Source: Periplaneta americana
Lineage: Eukaryota > Arthropoda > Insecta > Blattodea > Blattidae
NCBI RefSeq assembly: GCF_040183065.1
Contig: NC_091125.1
Location: 126,959,621-127,023,620 of the forward strand
DNA: 64,000 nt
Direction: 5' to 3'
The notes beneath the pieces are model-generated. The model was not told where the DNA came from. It ran no database searches and saw nothing but the letters and a program-made list of their open reading frames with translations. Shown in pieces: positions 2,391-62,570 of this stretch. Every line of letters starts with the position of its first letter. Position 1 is the first letter of the stretch. The translations under genes were made by a program, and so were the position numbers.

Positions 2391-2498
2391 TTATTTCTCG
2401 TTGGTAAACAGAATTCCAACGTCAAAATATGGCTTCCATACCGGAAAAAGAAGAAAACGAAAAACAAGAAGAAGATGTAGACTTAAAAAAAATTTCAG
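2391..2498 (+). CDS. Candidate gene 1, first coding exon
   Basis: A pyrimidine-rich acceptor (TTTTATTTCAG, ending 2390) and a consensus donor (CAG|GTAAGT, cut after 2498) delimit this exon. ATG at 2429 opens a 70-nt coding part for an acidic, Lys/Glu-rich N-terminus starting MASIPEKEENEKQEED. It ends in phase 1 (one base of the next codon). Bases 2391-2428 would be 5' UTR with an upstream first exon not identified. The next compatible exon is 14158-14209 and the last is 20565-20739; joined they give 98 residues with no internal stop. Function is not recognised. The same layout occurs in gene 2 at 52-62 kb. Without transcripts the model rests on splice signals, phase and symmetry with gene 2. 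Confidence 0.45.
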
Positions 2499-2727
2499 GT
2501 AAGTAATATGAGTATATTAAAAGTATTTATTTCAGTCACTGACTTCACAACAGACGTTTAAGGTGTTAAACCTTTACATTACATGTTTAAAAGATGTATA
2601 AACGTTTTCGTTGTTCAGGGCCAACATCATCAGATACGAAGTACATTTCGGTAATATCAATCATCTCTACGTAATTTCTACAAATACAAAACATAGCCTA
2701 TTTAGTGACATGCAGATTGAACCTTAT

Positions 2728-2989
2728 TTTTATTTTAGTTGGTTGTTTAACGACGCTGTATCAACTACTAGGTTATTTAGCGTCGATGAGATTGGTGATA
2801 GCGAGATGATATTTGGCGAGATGAGGCCAAGGATTCGCCAGAGATTACCTTGCATTCACATTACGGTTGGGGAAAACCTCGGAAAAAACCCAACCAGGTA
2901 ATCAGCCCAAGCGGGGATCGAACCCGCGCCCGAACGCAACTTCAGACCGGCAGGCAAGCGCCTTAACCGACTGAGCCACGCCGGTGGCT
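2728..2989 (-). mobile_element. tRNA-derived SINE inserted in palindrome left arm
   Basis: This is a complete minus-strand SINE. The tRNA-like head has box A (GTGGCTCAGTCGG) and box B (GGTTCGATCCC). The body contains GGTTTTCCCCAACC, and the tail reads ACAGCGTCGTTAAACAACC followed by an A-rich end. It is flanked by the 11-bp direct repeat TTGAACCTTAT (2717-2727 and 2990-3000). The right arm of the palindrome has one uninterrupted copy of that target, so the insertion came after the inverted duplication. Related copies are at 40570 and 58084. Confidence 0.85.
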
Positions 2990-3352
2990 TTGAACCTTAT
3001 TAAAATCAACATGGTTATGATACATTTTCACATTCTTATATGCCAGCCCTTATTGTCAATTATTTAAAATATGTTTGCAAGTCTTCACACATGGAATAAT
3101 GAAGTAACTTGATGTAAAAGAATAAAAAATAAAAATAATAAAATATAAAACTAAGGTAGAAATGTTGTGAATGTGAAGAGTTGCAAATTACAGTATTTGA
3201 ATACATTTATTGTGTTCATATTTCTGTTTCCCATTAATGCACATATTTTAACCATTCAAACGTATGTATCATGGTGTGTGTCTCATATTTTATCTTGATT
3301 GTTATTTCAAACAACCCAATTTATAATATTGTAATATATAATATTTATAATT

Positions 3353-4060
3353 TACTTACTTACTGGCTTTTAAGGAACCCGGAGGTTCATTGCCGCTCTC
3401 ACATAAGCCCGCCATTGGTCCCTATCCTGAGCAAGATTAATCCATTCTCTATCATCATATACCACCTCCCTCAAATCCATTTTAATATTATCCTCCCACC
3501 TACGTCTCGGTCTCCTTAAAGGTGTTTTTCCCTCCGGTCTCCCAACTAACACTCTATATGCATTTCTGGATTCGCCCATAAGTGCTACATGCCCTGCCCA
3601 TCTCAAACGTCTGGATTTAATGTTCCTAATTATGTCAGGTGAAGAATACAATGCGTGCAGTTCTGTGTTGTGTAACTTTCTCCATTCTCCTGTAACTTCA
3701 TCCCTCTTAGTCCCAAATATTTTCCTAAGCACCTTATTCTCAAACACCCTTAACCTATGTTCCTCTCTGAAAGTGAGAGTCCAAGTTTCACAACCATAAA
3801 GAACAACCGGTAATATAACTGTTTTATAGATTCTAACTTTCAAATTTTTTGACAGCAGACTGGATGATAAAAGTTTCTCAACCGAATAATAACATGCATT
3901 TCCCATATTTATTCTGTATTTAATTTCCTCCCGAGTATCATTTATATTTTGTTACTGTTGCTCCCAGATATTTGAACTACTCCACCTCTTCAAAAGATAA
4001 ATTTCCAATTTTTATATTTCTACTTCGTACAATGTTCTGGTCACGAGACATAATCATATA
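3353..4060 (-). pseudogene. LINE reverse transcriptase C-terminus with CTTA/GTAA tail
   Basis: The minus strand encodes 178 residues open to the stop: [39 protein letters not shown] and RPRRRWEDNIKMDL, ending in MNLRVP. These blocks form the region after the catalytic domain in an insect LINE family; GHV-x-GRP-x-RRW is a frequent RTE/CR1-type C-terminal signature. Upstream sequence is lost at 4060 by 5' truncation, the usual outcome of target-primed reverse transcription. The 3' end carries a short (TAAG)n tail, seen in plus orientation as CTTACTTACT at 3353. It sits in the loop of the foldback element. Other copies are at 12998, 19139, 30716 and 60866. Confidence 0.8.
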
Positions 4061-5009
4061 AGCATTTATGAGACAATCATATTAATTTGAAATAACAATC
4101 AAGATAAAATATGAGACACACACCATGATACATACGTTGAATGGTTAAAATATGTGCATTAATGGGAAACAGAAATATGAACACAATAAATGTATTCAAA
4201 TACCGAAATTTTCAGCTCTTCACATTCACAACATTTCTACCTTAGTTTTATATTTTATTATTTTTATGTTTTATTCTTTTACATCAAGTTACTTCATTAT
4301 TCCATGTGTGAAGACTTGCAAACATATTTTAAATAATTGACAATAAGGGCTGTCATATAAGAATGTCAAAATGTATCATAACCATGTTGATTTTAATAAG
4401 GTTCAATCTGCATGTCACTAAATATGTTTTGTATTTGTAAAAATTACGTAGAGATTATTGATATTACCGAAATGTACTTCGTATCTGATGATGTTGGCCC
4501 TGACCAACGAAGACGTTTATACATCTTTTAAACATGTAATGTAAAGGTTTAACACCTTAAACATATGTTGTGAAGTCAGTGACTGAAATAAATACTTTTA
4601 ATATACAATTCCGACTTCTCTGAAAACTAAAAAATGAATTGCAAAAAAAAAGTAATATGCGATTAAAATCTAATTAAAATACATATTTGAAATTGTTTAT
4701 TACATTTACGTGAAAATTAACGTTTGTTTTCATTGTAATTGAGGACTTCACCCGAATAACGGCGTATACGCTTATACGCCCGTTTTCCGAAGATCAAGGG
4801 ATTAGATAGTTGAATGCGTATAGTACACTGTAGTAAATTTTCGTAAGTCTAGCTTCAATACATAACACAGGACACAATGTTACGTGTTTAAAATTGAACG
4901 AGTGAACGCACCTACTACAGCGGCAGTCACATGCTTTGCAAGCCGTACTGTAGTAGGCTAGTATTCGATGTTTAGGCCTACTTCAGGTTGTCAGTTGCAG
5001 CAGTGAATC

Positions 5010-5510: not shown

Positions 5511-5595
5511 AAGTGCAATACAGTACATCAGGGGTATTTTCAGCTTAACCTCTTAATCTGCATCATTTGTTTCCTTCAACATTTGAAAGACGGGA

Positions 5596-5799
5596 ATGGA
5601 AGTGTCGCAGCTGAAACTTTTGAGTCCAATACAAATGAACCCAATGCCTTCGAAACCCTCCAAGGCGAAGGACTTAAGAGACCTCTTACAGTTTTCAGAT
5701 GAAGATGGCCAAAGTTGGCTGAACTCAATGCTGAATATAGCCAGGACATCATCACACAATGGTGAAGATGGCTCTAGCAAAAATAGTGATGATGCATAA
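5596..5799 (+). pseudogene. Acidic C-terminal remnant of the same transposase
   Basis: An open stretch of 67 residues includes LRDLLQFSDEDGQSW and ends with an acidic, Ser-rich tail (SSKNSDDA) before the stop at 5797-5799. Its place just inside the right half of the TIR element, after a gap lacking the catalytic core, fits an internal deletion joining the N- and C-terminal regions. There is no independent domain match. Confidence 0.35.
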
Positions 5800-9385: not shown

Positions 9386-10864
9386 CAGGGTGTTTCAAAA
9401 ATACGGGGCATAATTTCAGGTATGTATTTCCCTCATGTAGACAATCAAAATAGTTAATTACAACATGTGTCCGGAAATGCTTTATTTCCGAGTTATGGCC
9501 TTCAAAACATTGAAATTCACCGGAACGTTTTTCTTTCCGCACGTCGTTGCCGTCAAAGGAGACATTAAGAGGGCACTCTGACAGTTCATTCCGAGGCGAA
9601 GGTTACATTCAGTGTTGTGTAGGCGTTAGACTGTGCGACATGTATTCAAATCAAGAGGTGGCAGAGATACACTTCATGTACGGTAAAGCGGACGGCAATG
9701 CTGCGCTGGCTCGTCGTTTGTACCAGGAGAGGTACCCCCAGCGACAATGTCCAGATCGGAAGTCATTTGTACGTCTCCATTACCGTCTGTGCGAGTACGG
9801 AAAATTTAACTCTCCTGGTTTGGGAACGGGACGACCAAGATCTACAACTCCAGAAGTACAGGAGGAGATTCTGGAGGCTGTGAACATGACTCCAATTAGC
9901 ACACGAAGGGTAGCGTTGCAAGTCAATGTTCCTCATACGACTGTCTGGAGACTGTTGAAAGAGTTGTATCCTTATCATTTGCAACCTGTACAGGCCCTGT
10001 CACCAGCAGATTACCCTGCACGAGTTAGGTTCTGTCTGTGGTTCTTGCAGCAGTGTGGTGTAAATCCGAACTTTCCTGCCTTAGTATTATTTACAGATGA
10101 AGCACAGTTCACACGAGATGGCATAACAAATTTCCACAATCAGCATGTATGGGAGTATGAAAACCCACGTGCAACTCTTCCATCTCACCATCAGGTGCGG
10201 TTCTCCCTCAACATGTGGGCCGGTATCATTGGTGATCGATTAGTTGGACCCCATGTACTTGTAAACAGACTTACGGGGCAGGCGTACACAAACTTCCTGA
10301 AAAACACTATACCTCATGTTTTAGAAGACACTTCACTGATCAATCGTCAACATTCACTTCTTGCATGATGGCGCTCCTGCACACTTCAGTCGTACGGCTC
10401 GCCGGTACTTGGATCGAAGGTTTCCTGATCGATGGATAGGTAGAGGTGGCCCAATTGCTTGGCCTCCACGCTCACCTGATCTGAACCCTCTCGATTTCTA
10501 CTTGTGGGGCCATTTAAAATCATTGGTTTATTCGTCTCCGGTGCCTGATTTGGAATCCCTTTGGAATCGAATTGTGGCATGTTCTGAGGACATACGCAAT
10601 ACTCCTGGAGTTTGGGATCGTGTTCGCAGGTCAATGAGACATCGATGTGAGGTCTGTATTCAAGCAGGAGGTGGACATTTTGAACATCTCCTATAATGAC
10701 AACGACCTGCGGAAAGAAAAACGTTCCGGTGAATTTCAATGTTGTGAAGGCCATAACTCGGAAATGAAGCATTTCCGGACACATGTTGTAATGAACTATT
10801 TTGATTTTCTACATGTGGGGAAATACAAACCTGAAATTATGCCCCGTATTTTTTAAACACCCTG
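9386..10864 (+). mobile_element. Mariner-type transposon, DD41D, nearly complete
   Basis: Terminal inverted repeats of roughly 170 bp (left CAGGGTGTTTCAAAAATACG; right its reverse complement with few changes) bound a 1,479-bp element. TA is duplicated at 9384-9385 and 10865-10866. It encodes one transposase with a single frameshift. A deleted twin with near-identical sequence lies at 43077-43802, so this family was active recently. Confidence 0.92.
9640..10696 (+). pseudogene. DD41D mariner transposase with one frameshift
   Basis: ATG 9640 is the first true Met; the frame is open further upstream. The N-terminal helix-turn-helix region (EIHFMYGKADGNAALARR ... RLCEYGKF) resembles the DUF4817 domain. 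A second helix-turn-helix follows with TTVWRLLKELYPYHL. The catalytic triad is visible: Asp in LVLFTDEAQF, Asp in HDGAPAHF (second frame) and Asp in NPLDFYLWG, with 41 residues between the second and third, hence DD41D. A frameshift at about 10350 truncates the first frame at 10368; the second frame runs to 10696 and ends in GGGHFEHLL. Catalytic residues are intact, so the lesion is minor and recent. Function was cut-and-paste transposition at TA sites. Confidence 0.88.
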
Positions 10865-14157: not shown

Positions 14158-14209
14158 AAGAAGCCAAGCACAAAATCACGGAAACTGCAAGGAAAGTCGT
14201 GGAACTGAA
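14158..14209 (+). CDS. Candidate gene 1, middle exon (52 nt)
   Basis: The acceptor is AATTTCAG|AA and the donor is CTGAA|GTAAGT. The exon is 52 nt, entering in phase 1 and leaving in phase 2. With the G carried over from exon 1 it encodes EEAKHKITETARKVVELK, a charged segment that could be helical. The middle exon of gene 2 (54832-54883) also has exactly 52 nt and the same phases. An alternative phase-1 exon just upstream (13925-14055, ending in a stop) starts after a long pyrimidine tract and could be an alternative end. Function is unknown. Confidence 0.45.
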
Positions 14210-19138: not shown

Positions 19139-20522
19139 TTTGGGAAAAGGAAATTGTACCAGAACAATGGAAGGAGTCCATAATTGTACATATCTTATAG
19201 AAGGGGGACAAGACTAACTGTAGTAACTTTCGAGGAATAACATTTTTGTTGACGTCGTACAAAATTTTGTCCAATATTCTTCCGAGAAAATTACCTCCAT
19301 ACATAGATGCAAGTACTGGGGATCATCAGTGTGGTTTCAGGCGTCATAGATTGACTATTGATAATATTTTTCGTATTCGACAGACATTGGAGAAAAATGG
19401 GAGTGTAAGGGTCCAGTACATCAGTTATTCATAAATTTCAAAAAGGCATATTACTCGGTTAAGACATAAGTTTGAAATAATATTCGTATTGAATTTGGTA
19501 TTCCCAAGAAACTAGTTCGATTAATTGAATTGTCTCTCAGTGAAACGTACACCAGAGTCCGTATAGGCCAGTTTCTGTCGGATACTTTTCCATTCACTGC
19601 GGACTGAAGGAAAGAGATGCACTATCACCTTTACTTTTTAATTTTGTTCTAGAATATGTTATCAGGAAATTTCAGGATAACAGATAAGATTTGGAACTGA
19701 ACGGGTTACATCAGCTGCTTGTCTATGCGGATGACGTGGATGTGTTAGAAGAAAATCAACAAATGATTAGGGAAAACACGGGCATTTTACATGAAGCAAG
19801 TAAAGAGATAGGATAGGGAAGTATGTGATTTTGTCTCGTGACCAGAGTATTGTACGAAATGGAAATATAAAAATTATAAATTTATCCTTTGAAGAGGTGA
19901 AAAATTGCAAATATTTTGGAATAATAGTCATAAATATAAATGATACTAGGGAGGAAATTAAACGCAGAATAAATATGGGAAATGGCTGTTCTCATTCGGT
20001 TGAGTAGCTTTTGTCATTCAGTTTAAACTGAAAAAACCTGACAGGATTTATAAAACAGTTATATTACCGGTTGTTCTGTATGGTCGTGAAACTTGTTTCT
20101 CACTTTCAGAGGAACAGAGATTAAGGGTGTTTGAGAATAAAGTGCTTAGGAAAATATTTGGAGCTAAGAAGGATGAAGTTACAGGAGAATGGAGAAACTT
20201 ACACAACACAGAACTGCAGGCATTGAATTCTTCACCTGACATAATTAGGAACATTAAATCCAGACGTTTGTGACGGGCGGAGCATTTAGCACGTACGGGC
20301 GAATCCAGAAATACACATAGAGTGTTAGTTGAGAGGCCAGAGGGGAAAACGCCCTTTGGGGAGGCGGAGACGTAAATGGGAAGATAATATAAAAATGGAT
20401 TTGAGGGAGATTGGATATGATTGGAGAGACTGGATTAATCTTTCTCAGGATAGGGACCGATGGCGGGCTTATGTGAGGACGGCAATGAACCTCCGGTTCC
20501 TTAAAAGTCACAAGTAAGTAAG
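19139..20522 (+). pseudogene. LINE reverse transcriptase, 1.4-kb 5'-truncated copy
   Basis: The + strand encodes, through many stops and shifts, the LINE reverse transcriptase from the thumb-proximal part of motif 1 (VPEQWKESIIVHIL; HQCGFRRHRLTIDNIFRIRQ) through [13 protein letters not shown] (catalytic YADD) to the C-terminal WAGH-type block and LSQDRDRWRAYVRTAMNLR. It ends with AAGTCACAAGTAAGTAAGTA, the family tail. A direct repeat, TATACGAATTTT (19127-19138) and TATATGAATTTT (20523-20534), is a plausible target duplication. At least six in-frame stops show it is old. It sits in the last intron of candidate gene 1, about 40 bp before the last exon. Confidence 0.85.
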
Positions 20523-20564
20523 TATATGAATTTTGCATGAAAAGTACTCTTTTAAATTTTGCAG

Positions 20565-20739
20565 GTTTCCTAATGTTCCGGGAGTACGGACACCGGGGGA
20601 GGATCCAATAAGAGCTCCAATGTCTACTAACCGTAGTCCACTACCCGACGATCTGTATTTTCGGAAGGATGGTGTCATGGAACTTGAGGTTTCCAAGGAA
20701 GAAACGTCTTCTGGACACCAACGGAGAAGAAAATACTGA
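20565..20739 (+). CDS. Candidate gene 1, last exon
   Basis: The acceptor TTTTAAATTTTGCAG precedes 20565 and the exon enters in phase 2, matching the middle exon. It encodes FPNVPGVRTPGEDPI, then a basic/polar stretch (SPLPDDLYFRKDG) and a basic end (SSGHQRRRKY) before TGA at 20737-20739. An AATAAA-like signal follows at about 20779. The start resembles the last exon of gene 2 (IPDVPDGSEPGRHPL). No signal peptide, membrane segment or known domain is seen. The product is unknown; it may be a small charged, probably disordered protein. Confidence 0.5.
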
Positions 20740-20872
20740 GTCAAAATATGTACAACTGTATTCTGCTCATCAGGAAAACAATAAAAAAGTTATACATCTT
20801 GATTACACAACTTTTAACACTGTATCACTTCGGAATATGTATGGTAAGACTTTCTTATGTTAAATTTCAAAC

Positions 20873-20925
20873 GTACCTCGTTTACATGTTTCGACCTATT
20901 TATGGGTCATCTTCAGAACTGGTCG
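20873..20925 (-). ncRNA. Hammerhead-like motif, left arm of Penelope palindrome
   Basis: Minus strand: CUGAAGA, stem II GACC/GGUC with loop CAUAAAUA, GAAAC, the palindrome ACAUGU, then a strand pairing with the bases before CUGA (GUU/AAC and ACC/GGU). There is one extra base before stem II. Confidence 0.4.
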
Positions 20926-22270
20926 TTGTTGGTCTTGGCGCAACTTGTTCTGTTTCCTGTGAGGGTGTGTTCCTGTGGTATAGTGTAGAGTCAAAGAGTG
21001 TGTGTGTTTTGAAGTCGAGTTGTGTGTTGAGAATTTCGTTGGGGTGTGCTTTTGCGTGTCTATATATTTCATATTGTTCTAGTGTGTTTAGTTTCTGGTT
21101 TTTGGTTGGATGTGTAGTATTTCCATGTCTGAGTTGATGTCTCTATAGATGTGGTTAGCATTTGTGATGTGTTCTGCATATGTGGAGGTGTTTTGTAATT
21201 TTGTTATGGCCGTGATGTGTTGTTTGTAACGTGTTTGAAACGATCTGTCTGTCTGTTCTATGTAGAAGTTGTTGCAGGTGTTACATTTAACTTTGTATAC
21301 GCCTGTGTGGTTGTATTTGTTTGTGTTTTTTGTGTGTTGAGATGTTTTTGTGGAGTATTATTTGTTCTGTATGCAATGTTGTAATTTAATTTCTTGAATT
21401 AGGTTGCAATTTTGTATGTGTTTTTGTTTTCGTATGTTAGTATGATGTATTTTTTGTGTTTTTCTGTTTGTGTTGTATTCTTATGTTTTTTGTGATTATG
21501 TTTTGTCTTACGTATTATGTTGTCTGTTATGTTAGGGTTGTATCCGTTTTCTTGTGCTATGTATTTCATTGTGTTTAGCTTACATAGATGTGTATAGATT
21601 ACAACGAACAGCTAAACACAATCAAATACATAGAGCAAGAAAACGGATACAACCCTAACATAATAGACAACATAATACGTAAGACAAAACATAATCACAA
21701 AAAAACATAAGAATACAACACAAACACAAGAACACAAAAAACACATCACACTAACATACAAAAACAAAAACACACACAAAATTGCAACCTCATTCAATAA
21801 ATTAAATTACAACATCGCATACAGAACAAATAACACTCTACAAAAACATCTCAACACACAAACAACACAAACAAACAACTACAACCACACAGGCGTATAC
21901 AAAGTCAAATGTAACACCTGCAACAACTTCTACATAGAACAGACAGGCAGGTCGTTTCAAACACGTTACAAACAACACATCACGGCCATAACAAAATTAC
22001 AAAACACCTCCACATATGCAAAACACATCACAAATGCTAACCACATCCACAGAGACATCAACACAGACATGGAAATGCTACACATTCAACCAAAAACCAG
22101 GAACTAAACACACTAGAAGAATATGAATTCTACAGACACACAAAAACACACCCCAACGAAATTCTCAACACACAACTCAACTTCAAAACACACACACTCT
22201 TTGACTCTACACTATACCACAGGAACACACCCTCACAGGAAACAGAATAAGTTGCGCCAAGACCAACAAC

Positions 22271-22323
22271 GACCAGTTCTGAAGATGACCCATAAATAGT
22301 TCGAAACGTGTAAACGAGGTAAG
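22271..22323 (+). ncRNA. Hammerhead-like motif, right arm of Penelope palindrome
   Basis: This is the inverted counterpart of 20873-20925. Two core changes, AGUUCGAAAC instead of AGGUCGAAAC and ACGUGU instead of ACAUGU, weaken stem II and the palindromic stem III, so this copy is probably less active than the left one. Confidence 0.35.
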
Positions 22324-22762
22324 TTGAAATTTAACACAGGAAAGTCTTACCATACATATTCCGAAAAAAAGTTATAGTGTTAATTTTATTTCAAGATTCC
22401 TTGCGATATTTCTACCTACAAAAACTAGTGTAAATGTCGTACTTATTTTTTTTCGCAATGAATAATATTTTACCTGTTTTTTCGTGTATATGTGGCACAT
22501 TACTGATTTTCATTTTCGTGGTATTGAGCATTTCAGTACTCACACAAAGGATGTCCTTGAAATCAGTCCGGTCGACTGTTACAGTCATGTCGAGGTTCCT
22601 CAATCATTTTTTACGTCTTCTGGTACGTACATTTTCGTGACTTTCTTTTTTCACGACAGCGAAATCCTTGTCGGAAGGCAAATAAGAGTGGTCACTAACT
22701 AAAAAGTTTTGTTGGCCACTCTGAAATTTGCGAGTTTTCCACCAGGAATAACATTATCATTC

Positions 22763-39616: not shown

Positions 39617-40097
39617 GTTCCACTCATCTTTCATCATTGCAGAATTACGCTTTCTTCATACGTAATGCTAGAGAAAGACAGTATTTTATATCACTCTGAC
39701 CTGGGGGGCTCTATCCCGTATGCCCCCCATATCTCCACCTGTAGATACTAAGTACAGAAAGTAGAACCATCAATGTTTTTATCCTGGGAATTGCGAGGGA
39801 ATCATCTAACAGTGAAATAGTGCTCCAACCCAAATCATATAACCACTTCGGAAGTCCTAAAATAAATTTAAAAGTGATAACGAAATAAACAAATATCTTA
39901 TGTTATTTTTTTCCATCCAGCTACCTATCTTTCAGTTTATGTATCTGCACCAACAACCGAAGAATCTACGGACAGACTCTCTGGACAGGAGTTGCGTCAT
40001 AGCTGCAGCTTCATTTGCAAATAAAATTGTTAACCAATGTCTTATATCAAACCTTGGCAGTAAGCCATGTTTAAGAACAAGGAAAGATGTTTAACGG

Positions 40098-40105
40098 TAT
40101 AAAAG
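40098..40105 (+). promoter_or_regulatory. Candidate TATA box in unit B
   Basis: TATAAAAG followed by the most conserved stretch of the three repeated blocks. The equivalent positions in units A and C read TGTAAAAC, so only this copy keeps a consensus box. Confidence 0.4.
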
Positions 40106-40569
40106 AAACACACATCACTTTTCCGAGCACAAGCAAACCAGAAGCATCGACCTCTTTGCTCTTGTCTACTGCGAAGCTTTGCGTGCATCAGTACATCAGG
40201 TTAGTATCCTAAAACACCAAATACTGTCTTATAGTTTATACGGTTAAATTTACAGGGTTCCTCAATTGAAACTTATGTACACAATCAGCATATTGGCTAT
40301 GAGTCAAACGTTAACAACATAAAGTTATCCCGTGGTGTCGTACAGCATATTGGGGTATGGAGTAAGGCTTACATAATTTTTCGACCTCGGCACAAGGAGG
40401 GGATGTGGTCAGCACTACCTGGCCGCAGCGCCGTTTACCCCTGTAAGAAACGGTACAACATTTGATAGGACGCTGAGTGTAGATACCCGGAGCAGTCCAA
40501 GAAGTTAACAACAAAATCCTACGAAAGTAAATACGGGACCTTTCAGTCCACAGTCCGTTGTTCTATTAT

Positions 40570-41636: not shown

Positions 41637-41883
41637 GTTCAATCCACAGCGCCGGATTGAATCCCCCTCGTCTAGTGTTTTTCCCTTTGTGGCCTTACTC
41701 CATTTTCGATGTATGTATATATGTTGACATATATTAAGTCAACTGCCATTATACAAGGAGCGCACTCAATTGAGTGACTTGGTGGCCGAGATTCTATAGT
41801 ATATGCACTGTTGGGCGAAGAATCTACATAAAGATTAATTGTCGGTCTTACAGAATTTATCTGTTATGGTCTATGGCTTAAAC

Positions 41884-41955
41884 TTCGGTGTAGCTCAGTT
41901 CTTAGAGCGCTTGGTACGTATAATCAAGCACCCGGGTTCGATCCCCGACGCCGAA
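41884..41955 (+). tRNA. tRNA-like cloverleaf with GTA loop (plus)
   Basis: Partner of 41565-41636 in opposite orientation. The acceptor is TTCGGTG/CGCCGAA, with TAGCTCAGTTC, loop ACGTATA, and box B GGTTCGATCCC. The 3' continuation GCGAATTTTTCTCCTCTATT is shared. The stretch before each of the two elements carries the direct repeat TACAGAATTTATCTGTTATG (41514 and 41851), so the pair arose by duplication plus inversion. Confidence 0.6.
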
Positions 41956-41989
41956 GCGAATTTTTCTCCTCTATTAATCTTTACTAAAT

Positions 41990-43070
41990 ATGTGTTTGGT
42001 GAATGGAAGGAATTTCATCACGATTATTGGGATTGTGTAGTATACGATCAATGTTATCTTATTTAAAAAAAATACTTGTTAAATCGAGTATGATGTTTCC
42101 AGTATTTACAAACAATTTTATAGGCCTATATTTCGTGGATTATACGCCTATATTATGACCGTGAAAGCACAATGCACACGAGATACCACAAAAATGTTAA
42201 TTTTCGTACAGAGTGGAAAGAATGTTTGTGTAAAGTTGAGTCAGCAGATTACCGTAGCAAACCAAGGGGGGAACAGTATTAACGAAATTGGACTTACGAT
42301 TACATAATGTCACTAGAACTTATTAGATCTAAAGAAAATACAAAAGTATTTCAGTTAAGATCTTATTATCAGGGAAAAAGTAATAAAGTCTAAAAATTCG
42401 GGAACCACACAGTAAGACAAACAATGGAATTTATTCCAAATCTAACATACAGTATACGAACCATAAACAAAACTGCATTACATGTTTAAGTTTTTTAAGC
42501 AGTCTCCTTTCAAAAAACTTCATAAATATCTTCGCGGCAAACGCAGACAGCACATGAGACTAGCATAACTACAGTACGATTATTTAGTCCTGACAGTCGC
42601 CGGCAATGTGCGCCTAGGTCAGGCGAGTCCATTTAGTTACGCCAAGGAATGTTCAGGTTAGTCTATCGCCTGCAATCAAAGCGATCGGATGTCTCGCGTG
42701 CGGTATAGCGTTGTGTTTCCAGTACAGTTTAGCTGTATTGCATTCCTTTACCGACCGCTCACCCTTACCTCTACTCCGGAACTCTCCCAACTACTACTAT
42801 TACTTCCCCTCTTTCGCGTCGTCAAGCTGTAAGGATTAAATAATCGGTCCGTACTAATATACTATGCGCATTAACTTGTTGGATGCGAGACTAATTCTGT
42901 CAACCTAAGATCCTTCCGAGGCCTCTAATGCTTCAATTGAAGAGTGTGTTCCTAAATGCAATCAATAACTTAAGCAAATTATTGATTAATGAAGAATGAC
43001 GCGCCCTTTAGGAAATCAGGTCTATACATCATCTTGAGTAAAAAATCATATGAATATGAGTCCAATAATT
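41990..43070. other. No supported gene
   Basis: AT-rich up to about 42530, then more balanced. No coding signal or repeat recognised. Confidence 0.4.
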
Positions 43071-43076
43071 ATTATA

Positions 43077-43802
43077 CAGGGTGTTTAAAAAATACGGCCA
43101 TAATTTCAGGTATGTATTTCCCACATGTAGACAATCAAAATAGTTTATTACAACATGTGTCCGGAAATGCTTTATTTCCGAGTTATGGCCTTCACAACAT
43201 TGAAATTCACCGGAACGTTTTTCTTTCCGCAGGTCGTTGCCGTCAAAGGAGACGTTAAGAGGGCATTCGGACAGTTCATTCCGAGGCGAAGGTTACATTC
43301 AGTGTTGTGTAGGCGTTAGACTGTGCGACATGTATTCAACTCAAGAGCAGGCAGAGATACACTTCATGTACGGTAAGGCGGACGTCAATGCTGCGCTGGC
43401 TCGTCGTTTGTACCAGGAGAGGTACCCACAGCGACAATGTCCAGATCGGAAGACATTTGTACATCTCCATTACCGTCTGTGCGAGTATGGAAAATTTAAT
43501 TCTCCTGATTTGGGAAGGGGACGACCAAGATCTACAACTCCAGAAGTACAGGAGGAGATTCTGGAGGCTGTGAACATGACTCGATGTGAGGTCTGTATTC
43601 AAGCAGGAGGTGGACATTTTGAACATCTTCTGTAATGACAACGACCTGCGGAAAGAAAAACGTTCCGGTGAATTTCAATGTTGTGAAGGCCATAACTCGG
43701 AAATGAAGCATTTCCGGACACATGTTGTAATGAACTATTTTGATTGTCTACATGTGGGAAATACATACCTGAAATTATGCCCCGTATTTTTGAAACACTC
43801 TG
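43077..43802 (+). mobile_element. DD41D mariner, internally deleted twin of 9386
   Basis: Same TIRs and TA flanks (43075-43076 and 43803-43804). Compared with 9386-10864 it lacks about 751 bp, equivalent to 9893-10643, and the break shows a 2-base overlap (TC). The remaining frame reads from the DUF4817-like region (MYSTQEQAEIHFMYGKAD) straight into RCEVCIQAGGGHFEHLL, so all three catalytic Asp residues are gone. It could still be mobilised by an intact transposase because both ends are present. Confidence 0.92.
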
Positions 43803-44145
43803 TATAATTTTTGTTTTTACTTATCCTATGTAAAAATCCATAGGTGGTACTGTGAATCTTGTTTCCGTCCTAATACAGACAGTGGGGCCTGCACTAAGGG
43901 AAGTGGGGTTCAGCTGTGACGTGAAGTACGGGGAGAAAGGATAGGCCAGATCTGGTGATAGCAACTGTTGTTGATAAGTGGGCTTAACATTGGAAGAGGT
44001 CCCTTCAGAGACCTAGCGGCGTATGTACTGTCAAAATGATGGTGCCTCCACTCACTTTACTCGTGCTGTAGCAGCCCACTTACGAAAGTACAAACAAGAG
44101 AACAATTACTTGTCCGTATTGTGAGCGCTGCCGCGCTTATCAGCC

Positions 44146-44244
44146 ATGACGAATTACGAATTAGTACGAGCGCGATTTACAACTGTGCGGCGAAATGTGT
44201 TGCAGTTGAAAGGGGAATATTTGAAAATCTGTTTCCAAACTCAG
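44146..44244 (+). CDS. Candidate first coding exon of unidentified gene
   Basis: ATG 44146 opens 33 codons (MTNYELVRARFTTVRRN ... YLKICFQTQ) that run to a consensus donor, CTCAG|GTAAGT, in phase 0. The region just upstream is GC-richer than its surroundings and could be a promoter. No phase-0 acceptor partner was identified. It might belong to the gene 2 locus or to a separate gene. The call rests only on the donor and the open frame. Confidence 0.3.
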
Positions 44245-45899
44245 GTAAGTTTATCTTCTGTTTAATGTTTTGTGTATTTTTAATTACTTTCCTTTAATTC
44301 TACTCACAACTGCTACTTTCTTATAGGAATTTGTTTTGCTCAAAATGAACTATCGCACCGATTCCTAAAGCGCGTATCATAATACTTATAACGAAATTAT
44401 TCTAGTCATAAAAGTTTATACCTTTAACTGTCGCAAGTATCATAATTACGAGTAGGTAAATAAATCTACTCAAGACACCTGATTTTGACGAGTGTTTTTA
44501 CTGTTATTTCTTATTGCAATCAACAATTATTTACATTATTCAACAAATACGTTTATAATACTCATACTACAACTTCAACTGATCAACCAATTTCGCTAAC
44601 AGGTTTCGAAATAGTATATTAAGATACAAGGCTGGGAAGTGCTTTTACAAAATCGAGGCAAACTTTGAAAAACGAGCAGAGTGAGTTTTCCAATTTCCGA
44701 GATTTTGTCATGCACTTTACAAACGTGTATTGTACAACTTTTTTTAAACGATCATATTTTTTAAATTGCAAATACAATGTATTTTGCACTGAAAATGTAG
44801 AGCAATATTATTCCAAAGCCTTAGCAAAATTTCACTGTAATGGTAACTACGTAGCAATAAGTGCACTGTAATGAATCTATTTCAGTATAGTTTCATGTTA
44901 CGAAGAATGGCTTCCCTAGCAACAAGTTTCTGTGTGGGAATTCTAACTTTCAAGGCCTGACAACAATAGCTCTAAATACAGCAAAAAATACGATCCTCCA
45001 AAAGAAATATTACTGGTCAAAGCAGACTTACTTACGGAGCTTGTTTAAGAGCACGTACAGTATGTTATGACTTTATAGTGTTTAATTTTGTATGGAGAAG
45101 ATAGAATTTTTGTAATCTCAAAATGGAGGATTTATTTTATCGTAAAAATAATAAACATACATAAAAGGAAAAGATATTCCCTCTATACGCCATGAGCCAT
45201 AGTTTGTTCAAGTTTCCTGAATGGACGTGCCTAGTATCTCATTTAAATACTCTGAACTTCCGTTATTTAGTATTTTAAGTAAGAAAGTGCCTAATTCTTG
45301 CAAATGAATTTTTGCCAGCTTCCTGTTCTGTTCGCTGATTGTAGTTACGTTAGTACCTCTGCAAGTCCTGAAGACACTTTCTGGTTTCTACGTAAGGACT
45401 GCTATCTTCAGTTTTGTCAGATTATGGGTTCTTCAGTATCTTACGTTCCGATTTTAAGGCATTCAACACAGTTCTGTACTAATTTCGGTAATATAATTAT
45501 GTAAGAGAGCTTGAAAATATTTCCGTAAGTGTTTACTCCTGACTTAGAATTACAGCTTTGGACTTACGGCCTGGCTATCCACGAGAATTATGAAGTGCTA
45601 ATTAGCGTAGGTCTAACTCATCGCACACAATTTTATGCAGACACAGATACTTCGGCGTGAAAGAATGGCGTATCTCCAAAGACTGAGTCGTAGAAAAGTT
45701 AAAATGTATTCTTGATTCTCAGTCAATATCGAATTGTAAATTTATAATTTATTAAAAAAAGATGTAAAAAGATATAATTAAAGAACTGCTTATATGAAAA
45801 TAAATATATAATCTTCATAGAATGATAGTCTACTTTTAGATTAACTTGTATCAATTTTAATGTAACTGGTAAGATACGTAGCCCCATTATTGTTCCAGA

Positions 45900-45901
45900 G
45901 G

Positions 45902-45941
<40 letters not shown>

Positions 45942-46640
45942 TTATTTTAGCTGCCAAGTTAAGGCCGTAAGGTCTTCTCTTACACTCAACCAGCAAAAAG
46001 TATACATTATGTATGAACTTAAAAGCTACAAAGAATACAACAATCTGACTTAAATATAAGTTACGTCTATACAAGAGTTACTCATGAATTAAACAGTAAA
46101 ATGCTATGAACTATTAATTAAACAATGAAATACAAACTGTGTAGCAAAATTAAACTAAAATACATAGAATGTTAATATATTTAAAATAATGTTAGATAAC
46201 AGGAAGTACTGAGAGGCAATTTTGAAAGTACAGCGCTATCAGGATGCATGTCTAAAGAAAGAAGTTACCATATAGTCAGCGATCGTTAAGTCATTATAAT
46301 TAGAGTGAATTGCTAAGAAGGTTATCCTTTAAGCTATTTTTTAAAATGTTTATTGTCTTTCAACCCCTAATTCTTTGGGACAAGAAATTCCATTGTCGCG
46401 AGGTGGATACTGTAAAAGATGAAGAGTAACAATATGGTCTATGAAGAGGTATAGACTACTGCATTGTAACTTAACTGATAATTCCTTTTAGAAACAATGA
46501 TGAGGAGGTGATGCTGGGAAAACCAGGTGTGACGAAAGCATTTCCAAGAAAATCTGCTCAATACCGTCTCTGTCTAACACAAATTCTACTTGAATCCTTA
46601 GAGATATAAACGTCTAATAACCGACAAGATATCTGTTCAG
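45900..46640 (-). repeat. LINE 3' region with (ATT)n tail
   Basis: On the minus strand the sequence ends AAGACCTTACGGCCTTAACT, then TGGCAGCTAAAATAAATTATT and an (ATT)n run (45905-45941 on the + strand as AAT). The GGCCTTA...CTAAAATAAAT form is similar to the LINE ends at 48940 and 62080. The part beyond 46200 is uncertain. Confidence 0.45.
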
Positions 46641-47108
46641 GTAAAGCACAGTCTTAAAAATTTAAAAACATAAATTTGTTGACCAAAAATGTAATATTTG
46701 AAGAAATACTCAACACACTGCGCTATGTCTGTAATTTACTGAAAGCAGAATTTGTCCGCCAGTTCTCACCCATGTTGAAATTCGAAGTAGGAAAGTAGGA
46801 TCATAACTTTCACCTAAATGTCCGCGCTTGTTCCACTCTCGAACCCTAATCCATTTATACATCCCAAACAGAAAGACAAAGGATTTGACCAGTGCTATAA
46901 GGCGATCAGTTGGCTACGTAATTGCCGAGCCAGTCTATTGTCCCCGATGGTAGATTGAAGACAGTCAAATGCCCCACCACCACCACCGGGAGCACGCCAT
47001 TGGCCGGCAACTGGCGTCATGTGAACGCGACATGCTAATTACTACGCTGTTTTGGGGACTAGGCTGCTTGAGTCAACCGAGAAGTGAGTTTTCTCGCGTA
47101 TTTTTCAG

Positions 47109-48412
47109 TAGAGATGGGATGATTCATTTTGAAGTATCGGTTCAGTAAGAACGATTCCCTAAAATGATTCGTTCATTTGATTCACAGATGTTCCGATACA
47201 AGTATGAACGAATTACACAGTGGATCTTCATTTCTATCCAGCGATACCTTTCGTTCGTTACTACAATATTTACTTCACGTTCACTTTTTGCTCACTAGAT
47301 GACAGCACATCACAATGCATTAGTGGTAAATTGACACGGTCGTCCACTGGTTGCAAAGACGTATTAAAGACATAGTAGTACATATACTTAAAGAGATAGA
47401 GAAATGGGTACCGGTATATACAATAAGTTTAATATCTCCTACATTATGTGACTCTACTGTAATGTTATAAAGTTATAATATTTAGGCTACATAATCATTA
47501 ATCAGTAATGAAAAATAGAGATAAAATAATTAAACAGGTCACAGATTTTACAGTTTGAACACCAAAAGGAAGTTGAGAAAATTTTAATAAAACATAAAAA
47601 TCCAGGAAAGTCTGCTTAGTCTGATTGGCGTGTATGTTTTCCCTATCTCTTTTACATTTTTTGTCTAAAAATATTATACAAATGGTACAGTTTATGCGTT
47701 ATAATATTCACAAGTTTTGTTTTTTAATTTTCCTGTAGGCCTAACTTCATATTTTTAAATTTATGGTGGGCGACATTTTCTAAATTTCATAAATGGTTGG
47801 CGATTTTGTACTATTCTGTTTAGGATAAATATATTGTTTAAGTATGTGATAAGGAATACTAGCTTTCGTATCCATGTGATTAATTTAGACGTATGAATAT
47901 GAACAAGTTAGTCTATAATTAAGAACATCATAATTGGATTAAGCTGGAACGGTATCGGTAATTAAAAAATAAATAGTTGATGTAATGCGAACAATTTTAT
48001 TTTCTACCCGTTTTAAAAGATTAATGAAATAGATATTCTACCTTAGCAATTCATTATATCCAAACATGGCACTGACAACTTAAATACATCGTTCTATGAG
48101 ATTAATAACAGCTGATTTTAACAAGGTTCCTCTACCAGCTACCAGATGTCGCAAATATCGCAGCGTATGAAACAAGCACGTCTGTTACTGGGCGGATCTA
48201 GACATCTGCTAGTGAGCGGACCAATAAGGAACCTGGATTCAGAAGATTCGATGTAGAAAACGATTCATAACGAGTGAGAACCGAGAACACTATCGATTCA
48301 ACTTTCGGTTCAGGAAGGAATCGATTCATTTCGTTTACTGAATCATGATTCGTTCGTTCGGTTCAATGATTCGTTCATTATGAACAACTCGTTCATAATC
48401 TTACCACCACTA
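47109..48412. mobile_element. hAT-type non-autonomous transposon with 8-bp TSD
   Basis: TTTTTCAG flanks both sides exactly (47101-47108 and 48413-48420), the 8-bp duplication typical of hAT elements. The ends are TAGAGATGGGATGATTC on the left and TAGTGGTGGTAAGATTATG (reverse complement) on the right. Both terminal regions are crowded with GATTCGTTC/GATTCATT-type motifs, likely transposase-binding repeats. The 1.3-kb interior has no recognisable transposase. Confidence 0.88.
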
Positions 48413-48439
48413 TTTTTCAGTTGTTCTTCGTTGTAATAA

Positions 48440-49000
48440 TGCCCCCAAAGTGGAGTGACGCTATTAATATCAAATTCTTTGAGCTGTCTAAGGAGAAGCG
48501 ATGTTTGTGGGACCAGCACCATGACTTTTACAAGAACAAAAATTCTCGCGAAAAGGCATTGTCTGGTATTGTTGGTGAGAATGAACATTGAAGGATTCGG
48601 TGCTGCTGAGGTCAAAGCGAAAATTAAGTCCCTCCTTGGCACTTTCAACATAAATTCGCTAAACAGATTCGCTGACATCAGAAACTGTCGGAATTTAGTA
48701 GCGTTCAAAAGCAAACTTATTAAGCATTTTCTTACTGCGTAGAGTAGGTTTACTTTTTACTTAATTAATAAAAAATTTCTTTTCTCTTTTCTTATCTTCT
48801 ACAATAAGCTGTCTAGCTATTATTAAATAGTTAATCTTTTATAGTACTTTGATTTTTATTGTATTTGTAAATTTAATATTAATTGTAATTATAATTGTAA
48901 TAGTATTCTTAATATTGTAGTTGTAATCCCTTGGTAGAGGGGAAGAGAAGGCCCGGTGGCCTTATCTCTACCAGCTTAAATAAATAGGTTCTAAAAATAA
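48440..49000 (+). pseudogene. LINE C-terminus and 3' UTR
   Basis: The + strand encodes FNINSLNRFADIRNCRNLVA and FKSKLIKHFLTA before a stop at 48740, matching the end of CR1/Jockey-type LINE ORF2 (NxxP/FxxIRxxxxLxxFKxxLKxxL). The 3' UTR then has a GTAATCCCTTGGTAGAGGGG block, GGCCTTATCTCTACCAG, and a TTAAATAAATA tail. The same 3' end appears at 61894-62170. The copy is 5'-truncated at about the hAT insertion. Confidence 0.65.
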
Positions 49001-49439
49001 ACAGCAACTCGGGACACCACAGATGCTGCACACTCAGTCATTTTTCGTCACCTACTGCCACGGCAATACTTTCCTCGTGTGAGTTGGTCAACTTTCAACT
49101 TGATTGGGCGGCGACTGTCTCGCAACATTTTGGTAAAAATTGTCCACAATTATTTTCTCGCCAATAGGCCTCCTGTAAATGCGACTTAAGAGACAATAGG
49201 ATTTAATTTCCTCTGGGAATAAGAGACAGCCATATTTAATTTCTTTTGCAAGTCAGATATAACATACAGTATTATTTAACGGCAGGACACCGCTATTACC
49301 CAAATGAAAAAAAAAACTTTATTGCTCAAAAACAGTTTTAAAAGCAGTAACGAAATATAATAAATATTTGTAAAAATTAATGAACGAATAAAATATTGTT
49401 ACTTTCATCACGTCTATCTACCTAGAATCTAAATATTCT

Positions 49440-50350
49440 CCAGATATGTACGTGCAATAGTGACTAAAGAATCAATGGGCAGACCTTTCTTGGAAGAATA
49501 TTGCGCCATAGCTGCAGCTGTATTTATCAAAGTAAGTGTTAACCTATGTGAGTGCTTTATTAAACATTGGCGGGAAGCCAAGTTGGAGCTCAGACAGAGA
49601 TGTTAAACATTGTAAAACAAATACACATCACTTTTTCGTGTGCAAGCGAACCAGAAACATCGACATTTTTTTCATCCTGTCTACTGCGTAAATTTTCAAA
49701 CAACAGGTATGATAAAGTAGAAACTGTCTTACAAGTTATGTAAAATTAAATACAGGTTTCGTCAATTTGAACTTATTCACACTATCAACATATTCATTAT
49801 GAGTATAATGTTAAAAATAGCTTAGTAGGTAAATATACAGGTATCTCTTAAAGCTATACGGTGTATGGTGGCATGGAGGTAAAGCACACGTGCTTTCTTG
49901 ATCTCGGCACAAAGACGTGGTGTGCCCAGAACCAAGCTCCGGCCGACTTTTACCTCAGGAAGAAACCTGCATTAAATTTGACAGCAGACTGTAGATACCT
50001 GGAGCCGGTCAGAAAGTTATAGTGACAAAAATTCTACCACCACACGGAGGCGAATCCGGGACATTCCACTTCGCAGTCTATTCTGCAGAAAATGCGCCAC
50101 AACACTTCCAAGAATAGATTGGTAACGTTTGCAAATCTAATTATATACCTTCTTAATCTATGCAGACTTGACGGAAAGATCGGAGAGAGCTGTCTGTATT
50201 GCACATCGACACAAGGGACTGCAAGATTCTGCACCTCACTCTACGCCAAGAAACAGAACTTAGAAGTGCTTGCATTACAGGTGAGTTCGATCTTACAATA
50301 TATTCTCAGGTTTATGTAATATGTCGTATCAATATGCGACACATAATACA
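49440..50350 (+). repeat. Promoter-like repeated block, unit C
   Basis: Third copy of the block, nearest to candidate gene 2. It has ACACATCACTTTTTCGTGTG and GAACCAGAAACATCGAC, then a donor-like AACAACAG|GTATGA near 49706. Further on, TTAATCTATGCAG precedes an exon-like segment (about 50167-50280) that ends CATTACAG|GTGAGT. The exon-like piece could be a 5' non-coding exon for gene 2, whose first coding exon starts with UTR at 52141. In unit A the reading frames differ, which argues against a conserved protein. Confidence 0.5.
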
Positions 50351-52140: not shown

Positions 52141-52252
52141 GCGCTACAACAGCTTAGACTACAATAACAACACAGGATGGACGAAGGCAAGGAAGGAGCA
52201 GATAATATAGTTTTCTGTGAAGATAACAAAGACGAAGAATATGAAATTTTCG
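52141..52252 (+). CDS. Candidate gene 2, first coding exon
   Basis: A strong acceptor (a long T tract then TTTTTCCACAG) precedes 52141. ATG 52177 begins MDEGKEGADNIVFCEDNKDE and the exon ends EYEIFG at TTTTCG|GTAATA, leaving phase 1. Bases 52141-52176 are 5' UTR with a stop in frame upstream, so ATG 52177 is the likely start. It is acidic and short like exon 1 of gene 1 (2429-2498), with the same exit phase. No domain is recognised. Joined to 54832-54883 and 62318-62570 it gives 126 residues without a stop. Confidence 0.5.
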
Positions 52253-54831: not shown

Positions 54832-54883
54832 GTAATCTTACGGTGAATCCTTCAAGATCTGAAAGAATGTTTGAAAATATTGA
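54832..54883 (+). CDS. Candidate gene 2, middle exon (52 nt)
   Basis: The acceptor is TTTCTTTTCAG and the donor is TTGA|GTAAGT. It is 52 nt long, phase 1 in and phase 2 out, identical in length and phase to 14158-14209 of gene 1. It encodes NLTVNPSRSERMFENIE with the completing bases. It can join either the last exon at 62318 or the exon at 60241 in frame. Function unknown. Confidence 0.5.
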
Positions 54884-55341: not shown

Positions 55342-55342
55342 C

Positions 55343-60169: not shown

Positions 60170-60240
60170 GTATGCATTTTCTAGATATTTGACTTGGTTA
60201 GAAACTACTTAGCTATATTTTTTATTTCTAAATTTAATAG

Positions 60241-60445
60241 TTTTGATGGTACGACAAAAGAATACTATGAAATAAAATTAAGAAATGAAGGCTTACCAAC
60301 GAGAGAGAGCTTATATGAACTATATAAGTATTTCTGTAGCGAAAGAGATATGGGAAATACTAAAACAAGAGACGATTTAGATATGCTAGCTGCACATTGC
60401 AGATTGAAACATGAAGTACATCTTAGGAAGGTGAACAAATACTGA
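60241..60445 (+). CDS. Alternative exon of gene 2 locus, possible last exon
   Basis: Enters in phase 2 after AATTTAATAG and encodes FDGTTKEYYEIKLRNEG, LYELYKYFCSERDMG and DDLDMLAAHCRLKHEVHLRK, ending VNKY before TGA at 60443-60445. The composition (Tyr, Cys and Leu in a helical pattern) looks coding. It can follow either the middle exon at 54883 or the exon at 60169. If not terminal, a donor AAG|GTGAAC at 60431 would leave phase 0, which does not match the exon at 62318. I do not recognise the domain. Confidence 0.45.
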
Positions 60446-60649
60446 TTGTAACAACATACTAGAATGAGTGAGTCTTGCAAAAAACTAAACGCAAGTGCAA
60501 GATAAAACAAAACTTTTTTTATATTAAATATTTAAATTGTAGAAATTGTATTTAAATAATAGTATATTTTCGTTTAAAATTATAAAGTGTGTAACGTAAG
60601 GGTTTAAAGATTACTTGTATGCACTTTGTCTGTGAACTATATTATAATA

Positions 60650-60865
60650 AATTTAATATCATAACATATTCACCGCTACCTGCTAGCATCAAAGACTGTC
60701 GCAATAAAATTAAATTCAAACGCAAACTTACTGGGCACTTGGTCAGTAATTGAGACTCGTTCAGACATGTTTTCTTCTAAATAGTTCTCTTAATCTATCA
60801 CAAGATATTTCAATATCCGGTAACTTCATCACTGTACAATTTTGTTTTTCTAGGTTTAATTTGTA
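60650..60865 (+). pseudogene. LINE C-terminus, 5' side of a split copy
   Basis: Reads SPLPASIKDCRNKIKFKRK, the end of a CR1/Jockey-type LINE ORF2 like that at 48660, with a stop soon after. Its 3' UTR continues at 61894 beyond the inserted LINE. Confidence 0.65.
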
Positions 60866-61893
60866 GGCCTATGTGTCTCAGTGCAACGTACAGCAGAGTC
60901 CGTATAGTCCAGTTTCTATCTGATACTTTTCCAACTCACTCCGGGCTAAAGCAAGGAGATGCACTGTCACCTTTACTTTTTAACTTCGCTCTAGAATATG
61001 CCATTAGGAAAGTTCAGGATAACAAACAGGGTTTGGAATTGAACGGGTTACATCAGCTTCTTGTCTATGCGGATGACGTGAATATGTTAGGAGAAAATCC
61101 ACAAACGATTAGGGAAAACACGGAAATTTTACTTGAAGCAAGTAAAGAGATACGTTTGGAAGTAAATTCCGAAAAGACAAAGTATATGATTATGTCTCGT
61201 GATCATAATATTGTACGAAATGGAAATATAAAAACCGGAGATTTATCCTTCGAAGAGGTGGAAAAATTCAAATATCTTGGAGTAACAGTAACAAAAATAA
61301 ATGACACTCGGAAGGGAATTAAACGCAGAATAAATATGGAAAATGCCTGTTATTATTCGGTTGAGAAGATTTTATCATCCAGTCTGCTGTCAAAAAATCT
61401 GAAAGTCAGAATTTATAAAACAGTTATATTATTACCGGTTGTTCTGTATGGTTGTGAAATTTGGATTCTTACTTTAAGATAGGAACAGAGATTAAGAGTA
61501 TTTGAGAATAAGTTTCTTAGGAAAATATTTGGGGCTAAGAGGGATGAAGTTACAGGAGAATGGAGAAAGTTACACAACACAACTGCACGCATTGTATTCT
61601 TCACCTGACATAATTAGGAACATTAAATCCAGGCGTTTGAGATGGGCAGGACATGTAGCACATATGGGCGAATTCAGAAATTCATATAGAGTGTTAGTTG
61701 GGAGGCCGGATGAAAAAAGATCTTTGGGGAGTCCGAGACGTAGATGGGAGGATAATATTAAAATGGATTTGAGGGAGGTGGGATATGATGATAGAGACTA
61801 GATTAATCTTGTTCAGGATAGAGACCGTTGGCGGGCCTATGTGAGGGTGGCAGTGAACCTTCGGGTTCCTTAAAAGGCATTTGTAAGTAAGTA
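60866..61893 (+). mobile_element. GTAA-tailed LINE nested in another LINE, 14-bp TSD
   Basis: AGGTTTAATTTGTA occurs at 60852-60865 and 61894-61907. Between them is a 1,028-bp 5'-truncated LINE ending AGGCATTTGTAAGTAAGTA. The insertion split the 3' UTR of an older LINE whose two halves read on correctly when it is removed. Confidence 0.93.
60871..61801 (+). pseudogene. LINE reverse transcriptase C-terminal half, youngest copy
   Basis: The first frame (to 61482) carries [19 protein letters not shown] (motif B), [13 protein letters not shown] (motif C, both Asp), [22 protein letters not shown] and VVLYGCEIW. After a one-base shift at about 61430-61500 the second frame gives SSPDIIRNIKSRRLRWAGH and SPRRRWEDNIKMDLREVG to TAG 61799. 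Only a few lesions are present, fewer than in 19139-20522. The N-terminal endonuclease and motif A are missing through 5' truncation, so it cannot move by itself. Confidence 0.88.
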
Positions 61894-62134
61894 AGGTTTA
61901 ATTTGTAATTCAGTAAATATAAAATATTCTTTCTCCTTCTATGATAAATTACCTAGCTTTCATTAGTCAGGTAATCTTTTCGTACTTTGAATTTCATTGC
62001 AATTGTAATTGTAAATTTAATACTAATTGTAATTTTATTCTTCATATTATAGTTGTAATCCCCTCGTAAAGGGGCAGAGAAGACCTGAGGGCCTTATCTC
62101 TACCAGATTAAATAAATAAATACTAAAATACTAA

Positions 62135-62170
<36 letters not shown>
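61894..62170 (+). repeat. LINE 3' UTR, 3' side of the split copy, with (AAT)n tail
   Basis: Contains GTAATCCCCTCGTAAAGGGG, GGCCTTATCTCTACCAG, a TTAAATAAATA end and an (AAT)n run at 62136-62168. The same organisation appears at 48900-49000. Confidence 0.75.
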
Positions 62171-62171
<1 letters not shown>

Positions 62172-62317
62172 TCTCTCATGCAAGGCCTGCGGTAATGGCG
62201 TCATCGTATTGATAGAAAATCTGACCAGATTTCTCAAATATCGAGCGCATTAACGTTTCACATTGAAATTACGGAAAAGTCTTGGAGACATTTTATTATC
62301 ACTGTTTATTGTTTCAG

Positions 62318-62570
62318 AATACCGGATGTACCTGACGGAAGCGAACCTGGTAGACATCCATTACAATCCTTTCGTATGGACATAACTAAACCTGAAATAC
62401 TGATCGTTACGGAGACAACTGAAGCTGTCGAAAAGAGAGAAGAAGGAAACCCGAGTGAAAGTTCCTCTGACATCCTGCAAGAAACACAGAATTGCGAACA
62501 GCAAATCTGGACTGAAGAGACAGTAGAGAACAGTTCTGATGATCAGTTGGAACAGAAAGCAACAGAGTGA
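62318..62570 (+). CDS. Candidate gene 2, last exon
   Basis: The acceptor TTTATTGTTTCAG precedes 62318. The exon enters in phase 2 and encodes IPDVPDGSEPGRHPLQSF, a KPEILIVTETTE segment, then a long acidic, Ser/Gln-rich end (SESSSDILQE ... EQKATE) before TGA 62568-62570. The opening motif parallels gene 1's FPNVPGVRTPGEDPI. The acidic tail suggests a disordered region. No membrane or signal segment. Product and pathway unknown. Confidence 0.5.

Follow-up and report, generated by a model that had tools for sequence, protein, structure and literature searches.

Recurrent duplication and rapid diversification are described for the abalone acrosomal fertilization proteins in the available portion of PMC9022041, and multicopy families of defensins, termicins, drosomycins and attacins are described for the cockroach Blattella in that of PMC7712779. 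The available portion of the American cockroach genome paper gives 21,336 genes and 479 Blattodea-specific orthologs, with approximately 1,000 Blattodea-specific genes in each of two cockroach gene sets (PMC5861062). Proteins that are short, disordered and fast-changing are often overlooked by gene finders and homology searches. Here we describe six small genes, designated A to F, of the cockroach Periplaneta americana, two of which (C and D) lie in a stretch of 64,000 nucleotides (nt) at C9:126959621-127023620 (the window). It is very probable that C and D are members of a tandem, six-gene protein-coding family that evolves in the manner set out below. The array is a clear case in which such proteins were first recognized by exon anatomy alone, with confirmation in the genome afterwards, and, as its six copies are of graded age, protein evolution can be traced through them.

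A tandem cluster of six genes

The initial annotation, made from the window, had proposed that C and D (its genes 1 and 2) belong to a small gene family because they have the same exon architecture. This proposal is supported: the family forms a tandem array, with two members in the window and six in the cluster. A tblastn search of the genome (3.23 gigabases [Gb], 91 contigs) with gene D identified the exons of two further genes, E and F, downstream, and two further upstream genes, A and B, were recognized by comparing, exon by exon, the 100 kilobases (kb) fetched on each flank of the window. All six lie on one strand within C9:126916484-127066001, approximately 150 kb:

Gene A, C9:126916484-126924826, product of 112 residues
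Gene B, C9:126932659-126943240, product of 100 residues
Gene C, C9:126962011-126980359, product of 98 residues
Gene D, C9:127011761-127022190, product of 126 residues
Gene E, C9:127034034-127043483, product of 125 residues
Gene F, C9:127055242-127066001, product of 163 residues

In each of the six models the middle exon is exactly 52 nt long with phases 1 and 2, the first coding exon begins at a splice acceptor with an in-frame stop ahead of the ATG, the frame is open and the AG/GT sites used are intact. The four extra genes of the same plan in the same cluster are decisive for the observation made on C and D. What is seen, then, is six same-strand copies with common lengths, phases and open frames, which fall into two subfamilies, share collinear blocks and undergo rapid replacement; as in a tandem gene family, they are adjacent homologues with a common exon-intron structure and duplicated flanking or intron sequence.

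The exons of C and D in the window are as follows:

2391..2498, + strand, first coding exon of gene C (ATG at 2429, 70 coding nt, ending in phase 1), from its splice sites
14158..14209, + strand, middle exon of gene C (52 nt, phase 1 to 2), from its splice sites
20565..20739, + strand, last exon of gene C (stop at 20737-20739), homologous to the last exons of B and A
52141..52252, + strand, first coding exon of gene D (ATG at 52177, 76 coding nt, ending in phase 1), from its splice sites
54832..54883, + strand, middle exon of gene D (52 nt, phase 1 to 2), from its splice sites
62318..62570, + strand, last exon of gene D (stop at 62568-62570), from its splice site and the tblastn search of the genome with gene D

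All six are preceded by AG, and the first and middle exons are followed by GT. The coding lengths are 297 nt (98 residues) in C and 381 nt (126 residues) in D, and the last exons start with FPNVPGVRTPGEDP and IPDVPDGSEPGRHP, respectively; the borders, phases, lengths, 52-nt middle exons and last-exon motif first reported for these loci are thus all present in the sequence. The first coding exon of C is backed by its upstream in-frame stop and by matching exons in A and B, and its middle exon with flanks (125 nt) is 90% identical to that of B and 82% identical to that of A. An AATAAA is found at 20780, beyond the stop of C. Gene D matches its neighbours in the first coding exon with flanks (206 nt, 86% identity to E), in the middle exon (86% to E, 87% to F) and in the last exon (82% over 414 nt to E, 73% over 238 nt to F). 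An exon-like stretch at 50166-50280 with very strong splice scores was rejected; it belongs to a stretch that recurs at 40856-41164 (73%), and no model needs it.

Chance agreement between C and D had been judged unlikely in the initial annotation. This judgement stands for the start of the last exon, which is the strong part of the agreement, whereas the coincidence of 52 nt and phase, taken alone, is weak. Judged within the window alone, the likeness of the two exon 3 starts has a permutation p of 5e-5. For the 34 residues across the junction, the score against C is reached by none of 21,863 open windows and that against D by one of them, which is D's own exon. Four same-phase last-exon pairs on the + strand reach the C/D score, the other three being copies of one transposon, whereas the - strand has no such pair, and neither do 60 random sequences of 64 kb. 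Several results weigh on the other side: BLASTP of C against D gives an expectation (E) of only 0.008, the plain identity of 5/13 residues is equalled by four unrelated exon pairs among 9,591, the exon 2 residues of the two genes are not similar (p = 0.23), and the phase 1-to-2 exon-like pieces on the + strand, two of which are the two 52-nt exons, number four, where 10 random sequences average 3.8. The last three of these results would favour C and D being unrelated, with splice-like sites and open frames that agree by accident, an explanation already refuted by four more copies with the same plan and by the alignment of B with E (BLASTP E = 2e-9, 70 residues, 39% identity), and to which we assign practically no probability.

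A tree splits A, B and C (ABC) from D, E and F (DEF) with support of 100/99, and a profile-profile comparison of the two groups gives a probability of 89 and E = 2.3e-6 over 37 columns. As alignment through the intermediates B and E shows, the two subfamilies are homologous, C and D being a poorly preserved pair. The common core spans exon 2 into exon 3 and reads, in most members, R-x-F ... P-[ND]-V-P-E-G-x-x-P-G-x-[NH]-P. Collinearity of flanks and introns extends over approximately 11-13 kb between A and B (pieces of 76-92% identity) and approximately 16-18 kb between D and E (pieces of 72-90% identity); for B/C and E/F it is partial. Genes C and D have six pieces in common at the DNA level, none of them at exons and several of them transposon copies.

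Both ATGs (2429 and 52177) are internal to their first exons, each with an in-frame stop before it. Because the first coding exons start at splice acceptors, an upstream untranslated leader exon is required for each gene; of the structure originally given for C and D, the three coding exons hold, but the first coding exon is not the first exon. Upstream blocks are kept within each subfamily: those of A, B and C combine a TATA-like element with a donor that reads GTAAGT in A and B and GTGAGT in C, and those of D, E and F contain a donor CAG/GTA, which in the window lies at 49706/49707. We infer that these blocks are leader exons. Two copies of the DEF block lie in the window:

49590..49706, + strand, putative untranslated leader exon of gene D (donor CAG/GTATGA at 49706/49707; 5' end not defined)
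40085..40317, + strand, orphan copy (X) of the DEF leader/promoter block, 71% identical to window positions 49598-49817

A query of 49590-49990 finds the block of E at 92% and that of F at 71%; past approximately 49837 this query is a dispersed repeat, and 36 of the 40 scored matches (from 239 candidates) fall on that 3' part. Among these scored matches, X is the fourth occurrence of the DEF block in the cluster. No coding exons are recognizable behind it (exon search of 40000-49300, nothing below E = 0.01). X may be what is left of a seventh unit, or else serve gene D as an alternative leader; one of the two is likely.

With the exons of all six genes as queries, blastn (threshold 1e-4) gave 66 matches in 264 kb, of which four lie outside the 18 exons. 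None of these four is an exon; the 57 kb flanking the cluster on each side thus show no additional member. Genome-wide protein searches with D, C, B, A and F produced matches with E < 0.001 only in the C9 cluster. The sensitivity of these searches is low (query C missed A and B up to E = 10, and query B found E only at 5.06), and distant members elsewhere in the genome may therefore have been missed.

Coding frames, selection and products

Under generic codon-position frequencies, which were not tuned to these genes, C and D score +0.219 and +0.208 bits per codon in the predicted frame, and both score negative in the other two. In the last exons of C and D no frame but the predicted one is open, and in amino-acid composition five of the six C/D coding pieces are in the top 2.5% of open windows.

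Compared exon by exon up to the point before both stops, A and B differ by indels of 3 and 3 nt. The remaining within-subfamily comparisons give indels of 3 nt, plus one of 4 nt that falls at the final base of the stop codon (D/E); 126, 6 and 3 nt (D/F); 126 and 6 nt (E/F); 18, 6, 3, 6 and 2 nt (A/C); and 18, 6, 6 and 2 nt (B/C). All are thus multiples of three save the one on the D/E stop codon and a 2-nt gap that C shows against A and B and that alters its C-terminal residues. Noncoding indels number 10.5 and 13 per kb, 83-84% of them not multiples of three, and at 13 per kb approximately four frame-breaking indels would be expected between D and E. In simulations of neutral drift at the noncoding indel rates, the frame is kept in a fraction of 0.0038 (D/E) and 0.019 (A/B) of trials, and in 0/5,000 for E/F. 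Indels, simulations and noncoding indel rates all indicate a frame kept against drift, as in functional protein-coding genes.

These results bear on the suggestion that the exons are those of a noncoding RNA or parts of mobile elements, which would suit short products without known domains in a repeat-rich region. We consider it very unlikely: the coding signal is confined to the predicted frame, coding indels come in threes, replacement between subfamilies is constrained (below) and the window exons fall outside repeats. Exon 2 of E, used as a DNA query, occurs at three places in 3.2 Gb (D, E and F), all in the cluster, unlike a transposon.

Between subfamilies, the ratio of the proportions of nonsynonymous and synonymous differences (pN/pS) is 0.61-0.73, with an upper 95% limit below 1 in 9/9 pairs. 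Within subfamilies, the ratio of nonsynonymous to synonymous rates (dN/dS) is 1.95 for A/B, 0.85 for D/E, 0.86 for D/F, 0.97 for E/F, 0.78 for B/C and 0.74 for A/C. Purifying selection, which the initial annotation had offered as a check, is accordingly visible between subfamilies but not inside them, where replacement runs near or above the noncoding rate. Codon positions 1 and 2 differ by 0.196 between A and B, compared with 0.102 in alignable noncoding sequence (Fisher 3.3e-5); for D and E the values are 0.143 and 0.134, which is not a significant difference. Replacements are densest in a stretch of 35 codons directly after the P-[N/D]-V-P motif, at codons 39-73 for A/B (p = 0.0001) and 49-83 for D/E (p = 0.016).

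The main competing explanation is that the array is relaxed and decaying, the largely redundant copies of an old gene, duplicated several times, drifting almost neutrally with only one or two still useful. It is possible, if on balance unlikely, and agrees with the dN/dS of 0.74-0.97 in five of the six within-subfamily pairs, the noncoding rate at D/E codon positions 1 and 2, the shifted C-terminus of C, the partial loss of the motif in A and F, and the leader block at 40085-40317 without exons. Drift of this kind would not be expected to leave all six frames and the AG/GT sites of the models intact, to keep coding indels nearly always in threes when D and E should differ by approximately four frame-breaking ones, or to raise A/B replacement above the noncoding rate.

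A number of observations temper the reading of the array as a functional, rapidly evolving coding family. For A/B, dN does not significantly exceed dS when the two are compared directly (Fisher p = 0.14; bootstrap lower limit 1.02), and D/E shows no excess replacement; relaxed constraint is therefore possible. Divergence of noncoding DNA was taken from alignable blocks only, which biases this yardstick low, and the A/B cluster of differences could stem from conversion with another paralogue. The absence of parts of the motif from A and F can be read as decay. In the B/C simulation 0/5,000 trials stay in frame, but C does carry a frame-changing gap; and with stops as the only hazard a fraction of 0.06-0.23 of trials would keep an open frame, which leaves the indels to carry the argument against drift. 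Finally, exon 2 of D does not have a coding-like composition (0.40), and no canonical AATAAA lies within 700 nt of the stop of D.

The products are acidic, with isoelectric points of 4.05-4.45 except for C (5.76), and contain 0-4 cysteines. The charge-hydropathy line places all six on its disordered side; the call of disorder comes from this measure alone, which is a further point on the cautious side. By inspection, none of the six N-termini, all of which are hydrophilic, has a hydrophobic leader or signal peptide. With E up to 10, Pfam returned nothing for the six members apart from one chance match at 7.9 in one of them, and PDB no relatives beyond chance, which bears out the earlier remark that the products have no known domain. 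Scans of viral and prokaryote contigs with the two-gene C/D alignment found no relative. No named family of this kind was found in the literature, a search that, lacking gene names, is not proof of absence.

Repeats and neighbouring elements in the window

Just past the exon 1 donor of gene C, 2511-4650 is occupied by an element whose long arms are inverted relative to each other (2512-2728 with 4395-4606 and 2990-3311 with 4086-4406; 95-98% identity). With AAGTAATATG at either end of it, and with the sequence of the gene B intron picking up again in C at 4650, it looks like an insertion with target duplication. The element was ruled out as the source of the strong donor at 2498: what resumes at 4650 is the gene B intron that follows the donor, so the element was inserted after it. 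Directly behind gene C, at 20863-22332, is an inverted repeat with 475-nt arms (94%), which we take to belong to a Penelope-like element.

Two copies of a further element, presumably Tc1/mariner-like, are found at 9394-10822 and 43084-43806 and are 94-98% alike in their shared direct-repeat parts; the first contains a Pfam DUF4817 helix-turn-helix. Copies of a long interspersed nuclear element lie at 19586-20527 and 60781-61894 (the latter with an RVT_1 domain), shortly upstream of the last exons at 20565 and 62318, which is probably a coincidence in a repeat-rich genome. Open reading frames at 5587-5796 (first intron of C) and 60185-60442 (second intron of D) have no Pfam match above the cut-off and no second copy in the window; they are likely the remains of mobile elements or retrocopies. 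A long low-complexity open frame of diverged short repeats lies on the minus strand at 33515-34303.

Possible function and comparison with known systems

The array would have arisen by repeated duplication of a unit of approximately 10-20 kb containing a leader exon and three coding exons, the middle one always of 52 nt. Judged from sequence, the six genes are probably expressed, and their products would be acidic, for the most part disordered and, since inspection reveals no hydrophobic leader, intracellular. The segment from the exon 2/3 junction (R-x-[FV]...P-[ND]-V-P...G...P) may anchor a putative short binding site, and the approximately 35 residues past the motif would vary, tracking a changing partner. 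The pattern of evolution prompts a tentative guess that the setting is reproduction (germ line) in the first place, and then immunity or genome conflict. A more specific proposal, which we hold to be doubtful, is that of an unnamed insect family in which a hypervariable segment, evolving under diversifying selection, is displayed by the fixed 52-nt exon and the P-[ND]-V-P junction motif; this would resemble an intracellular arms race (germ-line conflict, selfish elements or parasites), and members would be added by local duplication. If the variable segment is under such selection, the array would be an entry point to a cockroach conflict or mating system.

Instead of reproduction, the source of diversifying selection might be a role in immunity or genome conflict directed at parasites, transposons or selfish elements. 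This is rather unlikely in our estimation. Tandem duplication, a variable segment adjoining a conserved motif and acidic products without a hydrophobic leader would all be consistent with it, but no Pfam or PDB family is matched, nothing ties the six genes to infection and, by inspection and with so few cysteines, the products are not secreted antimicrobial peptides. Cockroach defensins, termicins, drosomycins and attacins are secreted defence proteins. Genes A to F are like these families in being multicopy and unlike them in their 0-4 cysteines, their acidity, and the lack of a leader peptide (by inspection) and of a Pfam match.

On its sequence features, the array is a tandem, fast-evolving small family, which is a known kind, and this one matches no family in the libraries searched (Pfam, PDB, viral and prokaryote). 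The Blattodea-specific orthologs reported in the available portion of PMC5861062 are the general class where an unmatched cockroach family would fall. The abalone acrosomal proteins act at fertilization, according to the available portion of PMC9022041, and genes A to F, whose products have no hydrophobic leader by inspection, are likened to them by pattern of evolution and not by sequence: in both, duplication is recurrent and diversification rapid.

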